Of a DNA stretch of 64,000 bases, positions 46,740 through 48,328 are shown in pieces. Origin of the DNA: Longitalea luteola (GTDB lineage Bacteria; Bacteroidota; Bacteroidia; Chitinophagales; Chitinophagaceae). The notes under the pieces were generated by a model. It made no database searches and was not told the DNA's origin. It worked only from the letters and a program-made list of their open reading frames with translations. The stretch spans positions 1 through 64,000 of the forward strand of contig NZ_JAFIQX010000001.1 of assembly GCF_017356035.1 (NCBI RefSeq), given 5' to 3'. The translations under genes and the position numbers were made by a program. The first letter of the stretch is position 1; each line of letters begins with the position of its first letter.

Positions 46740-46768
46740 AAAAAAGGCTCCTGTTACCAGAAGCCTTT
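46740..46768 (-). terminator. tRNA-fMet-type terminator, unit 1
   Basis: Stem AAGGCT / AGCCTT around TCTGGTAACAGG, followed by T residues on the minus strand. Nearly identical copies sit at 47079-47109 (one base change in the stem), 47421-47450 and 47762-47791 (after the intact tRNA). Confidence 0.8.
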
Positions 46769-46774
46769 CCAAGG

Positions 46775-46824
46775 TTGCGCGGGCAAGGATCGAACTTGCG
46801 TCCGCCAGCCGGCGGATATGAGCG
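46775..46824 (-). pseudogene. tRNA-fMet 3' half with palindrome, unit 1
   Basis: Acceptor 3' strand CGCGCAA and T arm are identical to the intact gene at 47798-47869. The block ACCCGAAGGT is replaced by the palindrome at 46801-46816, followed by the CAT anticodon and the GIY-YIG stop. Confidence 0.85.
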
Positions 46825-47079
46825 CTACTGAGATCGTTGTTGTAGAAGTTCGCGTATAAAAGCTCTGCCGCCAGCAGATTTTAACTGCCGCTCTCGCTTC
46901 ATCGCACTTGATTTGTCGTTAAATGTTTCCGTATGAAGAATTGTCCAGGGCCTGAATTTGATTGTCCAGCCTTTGGTGCCGGGTTCGTTATGAGATTTAA
47001 ATCGGTTCTCGGGATTGTTGGTAAACCCAACATAGATTTTGTCAAATTGTACAGAATATAGAACGTAGACTATATACAT
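46825..47079 (-). CDS. GIY-YIG nuclease, unit 1
   Basis: An 84-aa single-domain GIY-YIG protein of the small YhbQ/UPF0213-like clade. The motif tyrosines are in IVYVLYS and KIYVGFT, the Arg is in NRFKSHN, and a conserved Glu lies in KRERQLKSAGG. All catalytic positions look intact. It differs from the two other copies at three residues (Pro for Leu in NNPEN, Pro for Leu in NEPG, and one in the C-terminal region). It ends at the tRNA anticodon fragment. Confidence 0.9.
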   Translation of the reverse strand: MYIVYVLYSVQFDKIYVGFTNNPENRFKSHNEPGTKGWTIKFRPWTILHTETFNDKSSAMKRERQLKSAGGRAFIRELLQQRSQ

Positions 47080-47115
47080 AAAAAAAAGCTCCTGTTACCA
47101 GAAGCCTTTCCAAGG

Positions 47116-47165
47116 TTGCGCGGGCAAGGATCGAACTTGCGTCCGCCAGCCGGCGGATATGAGCG
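47116..47165 (-). pseudogene. tRNA-fMet 3' half with palindrome, unit 2
   Basis: Same arrangement as at 46775, with the palindrome at 47142-47157. The tRNA part is identical. Confidence 0.85.
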
Positions 47166-47420
47166 CTACTGAGATCGTTGTTGTAGAAGTTCGCGTATAA
47201 AAGCTCTGCCACCAGCAGATTTTAACTGCCGCTCTCGCTTCATCGCACTTGATTTGTCGTTAAATGTTTCCGTATGAAGAATTGTCCAGGGCCTGAATTT
47301 GATTGTCCAGCCTTTGGTGCCGAGTTCGTTATGAGATTTAAATCGGTTCTCGAGATTGTTGGTAAACCCAACATAGATTTTGTCAAATTGTACAGAATAT
47401 AGAACGTAGACTATATACAT
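47166..47420 (-). CDS. GIY-YIG nuclease, unit 2
   Basis: An 84-aa copy identical in protein sequence to unit 3 and with the same intact catalytic motifs as unit 1. The start ATG directly follows the T run of a tRNA-type terminator, so expression would need read-through or a promoter inside the upstream unit. Such close copies mean the duplication is recent. Confidence 0.9.
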   Translation of the reverse strand: MYIVYVLYSVQFDKIYVGFTNNLENRFKSHNELGTKGWTIKFRPWTILHTETFNDKSSAMKRERQLKSAGGRAFIRELLQQRSQ

Positions 47421-47456
47421 AAAAAAAGGCTCCTGTTACCAGAAGCCTTTCCAAAG

Positions 47457-47506
47457 TTGCGCGGGCAAGGATCGAACTTGCGTCCGCCAGCCGGCGGATA
47501 TGAGCG
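47457..47506 (-). pseudogene. tRNA-fMet 3' half with palindrome, unit 3
   Basis: Palindrome at 47483-47498, with the same boundaries as in units 1 and 2. Confidence 0.85.
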
Positions 47507-47761
47507 CTACTGAGATCGTTGTTGTAGAAGTTCGCGTATAAAAGCTCTGCCACCAGCAGATTTTAACTGCCGCTCTCGCTTCATCGCACTTGATTTGTCG
47601 TTAAATGTTTCCGTATGAAGAATTGTCCAGGGCCTGAATTTGATTGTCCAGCCTTTGGTGCCGAGTTCGTTATGAGATTTAAATCGGTTCTCGAGATTGT
47701 TGGTAAACCCAACATAGATTTTGTCAAATTGTACAGAATATAGAACGTAGACTATATACAT
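47507..47761 (-). CDS. GIY-YIG nuclease, unit 3
   Basis: An 84-aa GIY-YIG protein with all motifs intact. Its ATG comes right after the terminator of the intact tRNA-fMet (47762-47791), with no separate promoter visible. It is therefore probably transcribed, if at all, by read-through from the tRNA promoter. Related small GIY-YIG proteins are of unknown role; homing-type DNA cutting is possible. Confidence 0.9.
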   Translation of the reverse strand: MYIVYVLYSVQFDKIYVGFTNNLENRFKSHNELGTKGWTIKFRPWTILHTETFNDKSSAMKRERQLKSAGGRAFIRELLQQRSQ

Positions 47762-47797
47762 AAAAAAAGGCTCCTGTTACCAGAAGCCTTTCCAAAG

Positions 47798-47869
47798 TTG
47801 CGCGGGCAAGGATCGAACTTGCGACCTTCGGGTTATGAGCCCGACGAGCTACCGCTGCTCTACCGCGCG
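47798..47869 (-). tRNA. Initiator tRNA-fMet (CAT)
   Basis: A complete 72-nt minus-strand tRNA. Initiator hallmarks are present: the C1-A72 mismatch (acceptor CGCGCGG with CCGCGCA) and three G-C pairs beside the anticodon loop (GGG-CTCATAA-CCC). The T arm is GCAAG-TTCGATC-CTTGC. It is the only intact initiator in the window. It sits between three 5'-half copies on one side and three GIY-YIG/3'-half units on the other. Confidence 0.96.
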
Positions 47870-47910
47870 ATATAATATTTTTTAACTGTTTTATCTAAAA
47901 GAACTTGTTT

Positions 47911-47972
47911 CGAACTTGCGTCCGCCAGCCGGCGGATATGAGCCCGACGAGCTACCGCTGCTCTACCGCGCG
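47911..47972 (-). pseudogene. tRNA-fMet 5' half with palindrome, copy C
   Basis: Minus strand: acceptor 5' strand, D arm and anticodon arm through CAT identical to the intact tRNA, then the palindrome (47921-47936), then ten bases of T stem (CGCAAGTTCG). The acceptor 3' strand is absent. It is one of three tandem copies with a 103-bp period. Confidence 0.85.
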
Positions 47973-48013
47973 ATATAATATTTTTTAACTGTTTTATCTA
48001 AAAGAACTTGTTT

Positions 48014-48075
48014 CGAACTTGCGTCCGCCAGCCGGCGGATATGAGCCCGACGAGCTACCGCTGCTCTACCGCGCG
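48014..48075 (-). pseudogene. tRNA-fMet 5' half with palindrome, copy B
   Basis: Same as copy C, with the palindrome at 48024-48039. The 41-bp AT-rich spacer between copies matches the DNA just upstream of the intact tRNA, so each copy carries a duplicate of the tRNA promoter. Confidence 0.85.
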
Positions 48076-48116
48076 ATATAATATTTTTTAACTGTTTTAT
48101 CTAAAAGAACTTGTTT

Positions 48117-48178
48117 CAAACTTGCGTCCGCCAGCCGGCGGATATGAGCCCGACGAGCTACCGCTGCTCTACCGCGCG
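48117..48178 (-). pseudogene. tRNA-fMet 5' half with palindrome, copy A
   Basis: Palindrome at 48127-48142; one base differs in the T stem. Upstream of this copy the spacer sequence is different, so it marks the outer edge of the array. Confidence 0.85.
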
Positions 48179-48328
48179 ATATAATAATTTCACTTTTAAT
48201 CAAGAACTAACAATTAACTTTTCTTTCGCACCTCAAACTCAGCATTTCAACATTAACCTTCTCATTTTCACCCCTTCGCTGCTGACCCTTGTTCGTTAAT
48301 TGGGTTGCAAAGATAAAGATATAAATCA

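Follow-up and report, generated by a model that had tools for sequence, protein, structure and literature searches.

How does one initiator tRNA gene come to lie among three copies of a tiny nuclease gene and six broken copies of itself? We asked this of the first 64,000 positions (1-64,000, forward strand) of contig NZ_JAFIQX010000001.1 of Longitalea luteola (GCF_017356035.1), hereafter the window, in which an intact tRNA-fMet gene is accompanied by tandem GIY-YIG open reading frames (ORFs) and by tRNA copies in which one segment, termed site X, is replaced by a palindrome. Comparison with loci across Bacteroidota gives, in our judgment, about an even chance that this is a chromosomal homing and amplification element resembling the phage endonuclease SegB, whose own copies of the target gene are disarmed at X by the palindrome. 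In the sequences compared, the position of X follows the target gene and, at three tRNAs, the clade of the nuclease as well. Cleavage and mobility are inferred, as are spread and amplification by recombination and a role for the palindrome. The element would work like a free-standing homing endonuclease; we do not claim that it is one, because a resistant donor gene was looked for at fMet and was not found.

ARAGORN, ORF prediction, repeat analysis and Pfam confirmed the layout that an initial annotation had read from the letters of the window, namely one intact initiator tRNA, three 341-bp GIY-YIG units and three 103-bp upstream units (Table 1). The three ORFs recurred with a period of 341 bp and were 98-100% identical to each other, while the upstream broken copies recurred every 103 bp, each together with the stretch 5' of the tRNA, the presumed promoter. 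Promoter and terminator readings here follow what is generally known of tRNA loci. The ATG of ORF 1 lay immediately 3' of the T-run of the presumed tRNA terminator, and the only ORF longer than 60 aa in the 341-bp unit was the GIY-YIG ORF, i.e., none was an integrase. The 16-bp palindrome TCCGCCAGCCGGCGGA was exact in all six broken copies, as had been described, with a chance expectation in the window of 0.00 (100 shuffles). The copies had been taken for clean tRNA halves, which they are not: the palindrome substitutes for 10 bp, ACCCGAAGGT, at tRNA positions 37-46 just 3' of the anticodon, and every copy retained tRNA sequence on both of its sides. Downstream copies kept 7 nt (GCTCATA) of the 5' side and upstream copies kept ~11 nt of the 3' side (CGCAAGTTCGA), with one change in the third copy. 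The 28-nt fMet pattern had a single exact match in the L. luteola genome, the uninterrupted tRNA at 47797..47869. Since similar tandem arrays occur in other genomes, three of them assembled as a single contig (G064, G093, G232), a purely local assembly error is unlikely to lie behind the window array, and we rejected it.

Table 1. Coordinates of tRNA, nuclease and terminator features in the window
Feature	Position	Strand	Evidence or detail
Intact initiator tRNA-Met (CAT)	47797..47869	-	ARAGORN; Rfam RF00005, 65 bits
GIY-YIG ORF 1, 84 aa	47507..47761	-	Pfam, AlphaFold2, dN/dS
GIY-YIG ORF 2, 84 aa, protein identical to ORF 1	47166..47420	-	
GIY-YIG ORF 3, 84 aa, 98% identical	46825..47079	-	
Downstream disarmed tRNA copy 1	47456..47506	-	short left arm 47499-47506, palindrome 47483-47498, full right arm
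Downstream disarmed tRNA copy 2	47115..47165	-	palindrome 47142-47157
Downstream disarmed tRNA copy 3	46774..46824	-	palindrome 46801-46816
Upstream disarmed tRNA copy 1	47910..47972	-	full left arm, palindrome 47921-47936, 11-nt right arm
Upstream disarmed tRNA copy 2	48013..48075	-	palindrome 48024-48039
Upstream disarmed tRNA copy 3	48116..48178	-	palindrome 48127-48142
Presumed tRNA terminator, once per 341-bp unit	47422..47455, ~47081-47114, ~46740-46773; original ~47763-47796	-	repeat families; terminator by eye
Intact elongator tRNA-Met, disarmed copy on each side	91..165	-	no ORF seen; contig edge
Disarmed elongator tRNA-Met copy	1..51	-	palindrome 22-37; contig start
Disarmed elongator tRNA-Met copy	192..246	-	palindrome 218-233

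Two of the window ORFs were scanned against Pfam and matched the GIY-YIG family (PF01541) at 62.7 and 61.8 bits (cut-off 22.6; E-values of 4e-17 and 7.8e-17). The Y, G, R, H and E columns were invariant in 49 rows, and AlphaFold2 modeled a confident single domain with a mean pLDDT of 93.1 over 83 residues. Proteins of the family measured ~80-100 aa, little more than the GIY-YIG catalytic domain. The nearest solved sequences were UPF0213 (1zg2, 9.3e-16) and SLX1 (5.6e-8). Foldseek returned UPF0213/SLX1 folds with modest scores, and because its E-values were 0.0027 or weaker the claim of kinship rests on the sequence match. UPF0213 and prokaryotic SLX1 thus resemble the window protein in sequence, in fold (1zg2, 1ywl; SLX1 6seh, 7cq2) and in single-domain size, but excerpts of one report mention no link of theirs to tRNA genes or palindromes (PMC1564403). 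The same excerpts describe a GIY-YIG domain of the Slx1 cluster fused to a TrmH-like tRNA methyltransferase (PMC1564403). PADLOC and NCBIfam gave weak matches only, the NCBIfam intron-endonuclease model scoring 18-20 bits against a cut-off of 56. In the stretch of the window that contains the array Rfam found tRNA only, plus two sub-threshold chance matches, and no intron family either there or in the 16 loci given to it. A group I intron-encoded endonuclease was rejected, as no intron family was found and the tRNA is uninterrupted.

To follow the ORF through genus, family and phylum we built a profile (A1), and it found matches in 74 of the 98 family genomes and in 98 of the 148 from the phylum. 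The 113 loci collected were the best-scoring genus, family and phylum matches plus 40 rows picked from the phylum list; several share a genome, L100 and L117 belong to a single array, and L045, which duplicates L039, was left out. ARAGORN called a tRNA within 500 bp of the ORF in 97 of these 113 (mostly best-scoring) loci and on the same strand in 97/97, as compared to 1.13% of positions in 19 random 20-kb stretches (380 kb) of the genomes of the same search. The 97 loci spanned 23 anticodon types, one false 'Stop' call excluded, and in two more loci (L133 and L143) the neighbor was another structured RNA gene, tmRNA in one, with two GIY-YIG ORFs in tandem, and RNase P RNA in the other. This range, together with tRNA-Gly and tRNA-Cys copies in L. 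luteola itself, does away with the earlier view that tRNA-Met is the sole target, and the targets of the element may be structured RNA genes in general. The nearest tRNA call was upstream of the ORF in 77 loci and downstream in 20, an approximate split since some of the calls are themselves palindromized copies. The order was usually intact tRNA, ORF, disarmed copy, and sometimes its mirror (read by eye in L137 and L141). ORF units and copies could be repeated in tandem, as in the eight ORFs with fMet-type fragments of the L117/L100 array, and more than half of the loci had a further gene copy nearby. Duplication, which had been proposed alongside entry into the tRNA gene, was thus borne out; entry was imprecise, for in the loci read the intact gene was never interrupted, the ORF adjoining it and the disarmed copy usually lying on the other side of the ORF. 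The 27 loci returned by a scan of named genomes included Niastella, Longitalea, Dawidia, Marinifilum, Cyclobacterium and Roseivirga; outside Bacteroidota they included a Terriglobia record with the ORF next to tRNA-Ala and two Ignavibacterium records, in one of which it is next to tRNA-Asn. A tree was built from 129 ORFs and was poorly resolved (81 columns); on it the tRNA label required 32 changes against a shuffled mean of 68.2, and none of 200 shuffles was as low. That test used 13 labels with at least 3 rows each, 'Met/Ile2' including some variant-sequence fMet genes. Taxonomic family required 54 changes on more rows and labels, a figure not directly comparable to 32.

Site X, the tRNA segment replaced by the palindrome, is given below in 0-based start-end coordinates. 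We selected palindromes near the ORF first and then required both flanks to match the neighboring tRNA, which yielded 126 candidates in 65 of the 97 loci; 57 of the 97 kept a flank-matched palindrome of at least 13 nt that differed from the native sequence. The commonest palindrome types had exact TCCGCC..GGCGGA or TCCCGA..TCGGGA arms, found in 37 of the 97 loci. X was mostly constant for a given tRNA across genera: 36-46 in fMet, 28-45 in Val-TAC, 26/27-43/44 in Ala-GGC, 26-43 in Lys, 50-59 in Asp-GTC (five loci) and 27-35 in Ser-GGA. Among tRNAs it varied in location, falling in the anticodon arm, the D arm, the variable region or the T loop. In three cases in which two ORF clades share a tRNA, X differed between them, being 36-46 in the main clade and 58-60 in the clade of L132 and L139 for fMet, 35-48 and 23-33 for tRNA-Asn, and 26-43 and 56-62 (L067) for tRNA-Lys. 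What the initial annotation had said of a GIY-YIG element tied to a tRNA, with a site-specific change and duplication of the unit, therefore held, whereas its restriction to tRNA-Met and to the anticodon side fell, X lying also in the D arm, variable region and T loop. We also searched ORF-bearing loci for fMet copies by their flanks, a search defined without reference to the palindrome. A palindrome was present in 34 of 35 non-native copies, and 3 further copies had the native X. The 34 palindromes comprised 16 different sequences, all starting with TCCGCC and 14 of the 16 ending with GGCGGA; the arms were conserved while the loop varied in sequence and length (2-4 nt at fMet).

Such conserved arms around a variable loop would suit recognition of a hairpin stem better than a dimer site of fixed spacing, and among the nearest solved relatives of the protein are UPF0213 proteins and the structure-specific SLX1 endonucleases. 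It is possible, if rather unlikely, that the ORF product resembles prokaryotic SLX1 and cleaves DNA hairpins or cruciforms, in which case the palindromes would be its substrate and not a scar. Its cuts would give recombinogenic tRNA-homologous ends that amplify the arrays and bring the unit to other copies, and the intact tRNA would never be cut, which removes the problem of self-cutting taken up below. The number of TCCCGA-type palindromes tracked the number of ORFs (Spearman 0.47; reversed-pattern control 0.05), and that of the TCCGCC type did so weakly (0.18), in 148 genomes with kinship uncorrected. However, an enzyme of this kind leaves unexplained why X is fixed per tRNA and nuclease clade and why ~12-16 nt of tRNA are retained on the short side, and it would cut palindromes elsewhere too; counting those in tRNA copies, the L. 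luteola genome has 27 TCCGCC-type and 21 TCCCGA-type palindromes.

The dependence of palindromized copies on the ORF was assessed in a blind sample of 30 fMet loci, returned for an exact 28-nt tRNA pattern irrespective of the ORF. Two of the 30 had an intact ORF and both had a palindromized fMet copy, while none of the other 28 had a copy; one of these had a weak, probably decayed ORF trace and 27 had neither. The ORF and palindromic tRNA fragments had been expected to occur together elsewhere, and the blind sample agreed (2/2 ORF loci, 0/28 others). These counts bear on a passive origin, in which tandem tRNA duplicates free of selection collect palindromes dispersed in Bacteroidota, with the ORF a bystander. 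We regard such an origin as highly improbable, since none of the 28 blind loci lacking an intact ORF had a copy and since 34 of 35 broken fMet copies, across families, have a palindrome at the same 10-bp site. In its favor, palindromized copies without the ORF exist, and the same palindrome types are dispersed elsewhere, including in a functional-looking RNase P RNA (L190) and in split ORFs (L241).

Palindromes were noted in several other settings. Some copies held two of them (L242, L243, L104). At ~1631-2460 of L241 (G166:C44), three tandem GIY-YIG ORFs were each split by the palindrome TCCCGATAGCTATCGGGA within the coding region, and at 1252-1668 of L190 the same kind of palindrome lay inside an otherwise full-length RNase P RNA gene. 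ARAGORN or Rfam called palindromized copies as tRNAs, with false 'Stop(tta)' and '???' anticodons among them (L059, L264, L047, L259), so that annotated tRNAs, including those with false 'stop' anticodons, are sometimes palindromized copies, a hazard for tRNA annotation.

The two arms of the disarmed copies differed in extent. Excluding Pro-TGG, false 'Stop' rows and shorter or other palindromes, the right (3') arm ran beyond the tRNA 3' end in 31 of 56 downstream copies and the left arm reached the 5' end in 3, while the left (5') arm ran beyond the tRNA 5' end in 16 of 28 upstream copies and the right arm reached the 3' end in 1. With the same exclusions, identity of the short side to the tRNA fell from 0.57-0.66 (13-16 nt) to 0.36-0.37 (21-24 nt); the requirement of 9 matches among 12 flank bases inflates the first 12 positions of this profile. 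The first palindrome 3' of the ORF lay a median of 15 nt past the stop codon (quartiles 11-20; within 150 nt in 89 of 174 ORFs). The idea that the tRNA generally supplies the ORF stop codon was dropped, as this was seen in 22 of the 58 loci that have a palindrome close by and also in 23 of the 77 that do not. This anatomy brings to mind an RNA-guided GIY-YIG nuclease, in which the disarmed copy would give rise to a small RNA, a hairpin with an arm matching the tRNA on either side. The protein would bind the hairpin (UCCGCC..GGCGGA or UCCCGA..UCGGGA), and the 12-16-nt arms would pair with the tRNA gene and set the cut at X. A short-side match of ~12-16 nt, a conserved stem with a free loop and a palindrome at a median of 15 nt past the stop codon would fit, as would the extension of the match beyond the tRNA 5' end into the presumed promoter in 16/28 upstream copies. 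A protein of near-catalytic-domain size has scant room for long recognition, yet ORF lineages keep their RNA gene. We nevertheless consider RNA guidance unlikely. In imperfect stems G-T mismatches were no commoner than A-C ones on the tRNA strand (20 vs 26, a redundant count), the arms would match the neighboring gene by descent anyway, and Rfam, as noted, found only tRNA in the stretch with the array besides two sub-threshold chance matches. If true, this would perhaps be the smallest programmable nuclease and a new class, with a guide system made from tRNA genes and arrays of promoter-bearing guide copies.

For the SegB-like element we propose the following mechanism. The nuclease would recognize ~10-15 bp on either side of X and would cut the gene at X, whereas the element's own copy, in which the palindrome replaces X, would be uncuttable. 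Where a gene that is element-free or intact was broken at X, homologous recombination with an element-bearing copy would repair it. A crossover on the long-arm side would keep one functional RNA gene and place the ORF beside it, a crossover on the other side would give the mirror order, and repeated breaks with unequal repair would give rise to arrays. We suppose the palindrome to be a hairpin or half-site that the protein may still bind, i.e., an uncuttable docking or operator site, as operator binding by homing endonucleases is known. As in free-standing homing endonucleases, the ORF lies outside introns and inteins and adjoins its presumed target. Element-free alleles also exist, since 27 of the 30 blind fMet loci had no ORF match and the orthologous locus of G006 was empty. 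If the nuclease does cut at X, the family would be a ready-made set of tRNA-gene-specific minimal nucleases. A tRNA-cleaving toxin with decoy tRNAs was rejected by argument, as the copies lack X and would be poor decoys.

Several observations weigh against homing at X. For classical homing the donor has to be resistant. The family sample had seven ORF-bearing fMet loci (G000, G001, G016, G061, G069, G077 and G087; fMet only), and in all 7 the intact gene kept 28 nt around X identical to those of ORF-free genomes, only the extra copies being changed. As the intact fMet is not recoded, the donor gene should itself be cuttable, which is the strongest objection. The model alone also does not account for the replacement being a palindrome. 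No palindromized copy was detected in 40 of the 97 loci (e.g., L054, with no broken copy), and palindromized copies without the ORF occurred at the elongator Met, Gly and Cys arrays of L. luteola itself and in G007. Several weakly resolved ORF lineages at Ala-GGC have one X in common, and the Asp array L245 (near twin L246) has other palindromes and sites, CCCAACAG..CTGTTGGG and TCCCCACA..TGTGGGGA. With one palindrome locus taken per genome and search, 55 of 59 lay away from any tRNA, 4 were near a tRNA and 3 near the ORF. No tRNA was called by ARAGORN in 16 of the 113 loci; two of them lie beside tmRNA or RNase P RNA, the L117/L100 array has its fMet-type fragments, some others (L057, L078 and L080) show tRNA fragments only, and some show nothing recognized. 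One random stretch held a profile match without a tRNA (L296). The window protein had no match in phage or plasmid records, and a phage- or plasmid-borne element was rejected on this ground. Lastly, the synonymous divergence of the ORF resembles that of flanking host genes: against Longitalea arenae (L261), pS was 0.55 for the ORF, 0.46 for era and 0.55 for the DUF2807 gene, and the corresponding values against Niastella caeni were 0.62, 0.65 and 0.64. This resemblance suggests that the ORF has long been inherited vertically at the era-fMet locus within the genus, as judged from these pairs, rather than having invaded recently.

Vertical persistence raises the possibility of a domesticated host function, in which the ORF and copies would regulate or maintain the tRNA locus, for instance by nuclease-driven change of tRNA dosage, with little selfish spread. 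Besides synonymous divergence like that of flanking genes, selection on the protein would fit. dN/dS was 0.04-0.19 in 8 of 15 ORF pairs with finite dS (the other 7 were saturated), and ORF 1 had 0.09 against L. arenae (G001, same coordinates and values as L261); by this measure the GIY-YIG ORF is under purifying selection. Array copy number also differs between close species. At the orthologous fMet locus within the genus, G001 had one ORF and two copies, G002 two ORFs and seven palindromes, G003 one ORF and seven palindromes, and the window three ORFs and six palindromes; G007 had two intact fMet genes and one copy without an ORF, and G006, an incomplete genome, had neither ORF nor palindrome. 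Domestication is nonetheless quite improbable in our view, as the intact ORF is patchy (2 of 30 blind fMet loci) and functional tRNAs are amplified far less than broken copies in the arrays read. By eye, upstream traces in G004 and G006 are possibly decayed copies. An 88-aa HTH-like ORF lay between fMet and the DUF2807 gene in G006 (L314) and G001 (L308; read by eye in G001) and was not seen in the window's copy of that interval. A palindromized array without an ORF was found in L317 of G005, at a contig edge.

Among known systems, REP/RAYT likewise links dispersed short palindromes to a nuclease-type protein. The L. luteola genome, however, has a single Y1 transposase match, whose 3.3-kb locus contains neither TCCGCC nor TCCCGA palindromes, and a REP/RAYT origin of the palindromes was rejected for this genome. 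RNA-guided nucleases of the TnpB/IscB type also have a structured element near the gene end whose flank matches the target, whereas a guide role in the Bacteroidota element is putative. Integrative tRNA elements are kilobases long and carry an integrase; the Bacteroidota unit measures 341 bp, has one nuclease ORF and its partial copy is palindromized. Like prophages, integrative conjugative elements and islands, it uses tRNA genes and leaves a functional tRNA plus a partial copy, and excerpts of one report name integrative elements of 9-23 kb in tRNA genes (PMC9897764). The nearest working counterpart is SegB, a free-standing GIY-YIG homing endonuclease of phages T4/T6, which is described in excerpts of another report as cutting within tRNA genes and driving tandem tRNA-segB amplification (PMC13096335). 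The likeness lies in a GIY-YIG gene beside tRNA genes of many isotypes and in tandem tRNA-nuclease arrays arising by homologous recombination, but SegB is phage-borne, its arrays raise tRNA dose and its cleavage is known, according to those excerpts (PMC13096335). The Bacteroidota genes are chromosomal and encode little more than the catalytic domain, and their cleavage is putative. Their lineages also generally keep to a single RNA gene, and each of the repeated tRNA copies has one site broken by a palindrome. Within the openly licensed literature, i.e., outside preprints and subscription papers, we found no account of tRNA-linked Bacteroidota GIY-YIG genes or of palindromized copies. This element kind does not seem to have been described, in keeping with the initial annotation, which had known of no such layout. 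Tiny nuclease genes shadow essential structured-RNA genes phylum-wide, often with a copy disarmed at one exact site. This raises testable questions: how a lone catalytic domain finds one gene, what makes the palindromes, and how the nuclease coexists with an adjacent essential gene without killing the host.

Further arrays were present in the L. luteola genome. The two elongator tRNA-Met copies at window positions 1-246 carry the same palindrome as the fMet copies. A tRNA-Gly gene had two upstream disarmed copies with the palindrome, one a one-base variant (G000:C11:225457-225589), and a tRNA-Cys gene had four, one a variant (G000:C39:454907-455135); no ORF match was found at these Gly and Cys arrays. 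The same palindrome also lay at scattered non-tRNA places. At C22:177388, C39:344030 and C33:422698 (L020, L021, L030), it or a one-base variant formed the apex of longer inverted repeats, which by eye lie just 3' of genes and are terminator-like. Two further divergent GIY-YIG ORFs were found in the genome, one beside tRNA-Met and one beside tRNA-Pro. By eye, the former (L006 1-600, G000:C22) lies directly 3' of tRNA-Met(CAT), an upstream copy of which has its anticodon arm replaced by TCCCGACTAAAAGTCGGGA and is followed by an apparent decayed tRNA remnant. The latter (L007 1163-1369, G000:C40), also read by eye, lies upstream of an intact tRNA-Pro, and its truncated start is apparently fused to the first bases of that tRNA. 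Elsewhere in the window, Rfam identified a TPP riboswitch on the minus strand at L001 130-236 (~window 45798-45904). Downstream of it a long ORF (43252-45735) was read by eye as a TonB-dependent receptor, and the pair suggests thiamin-related uptake.

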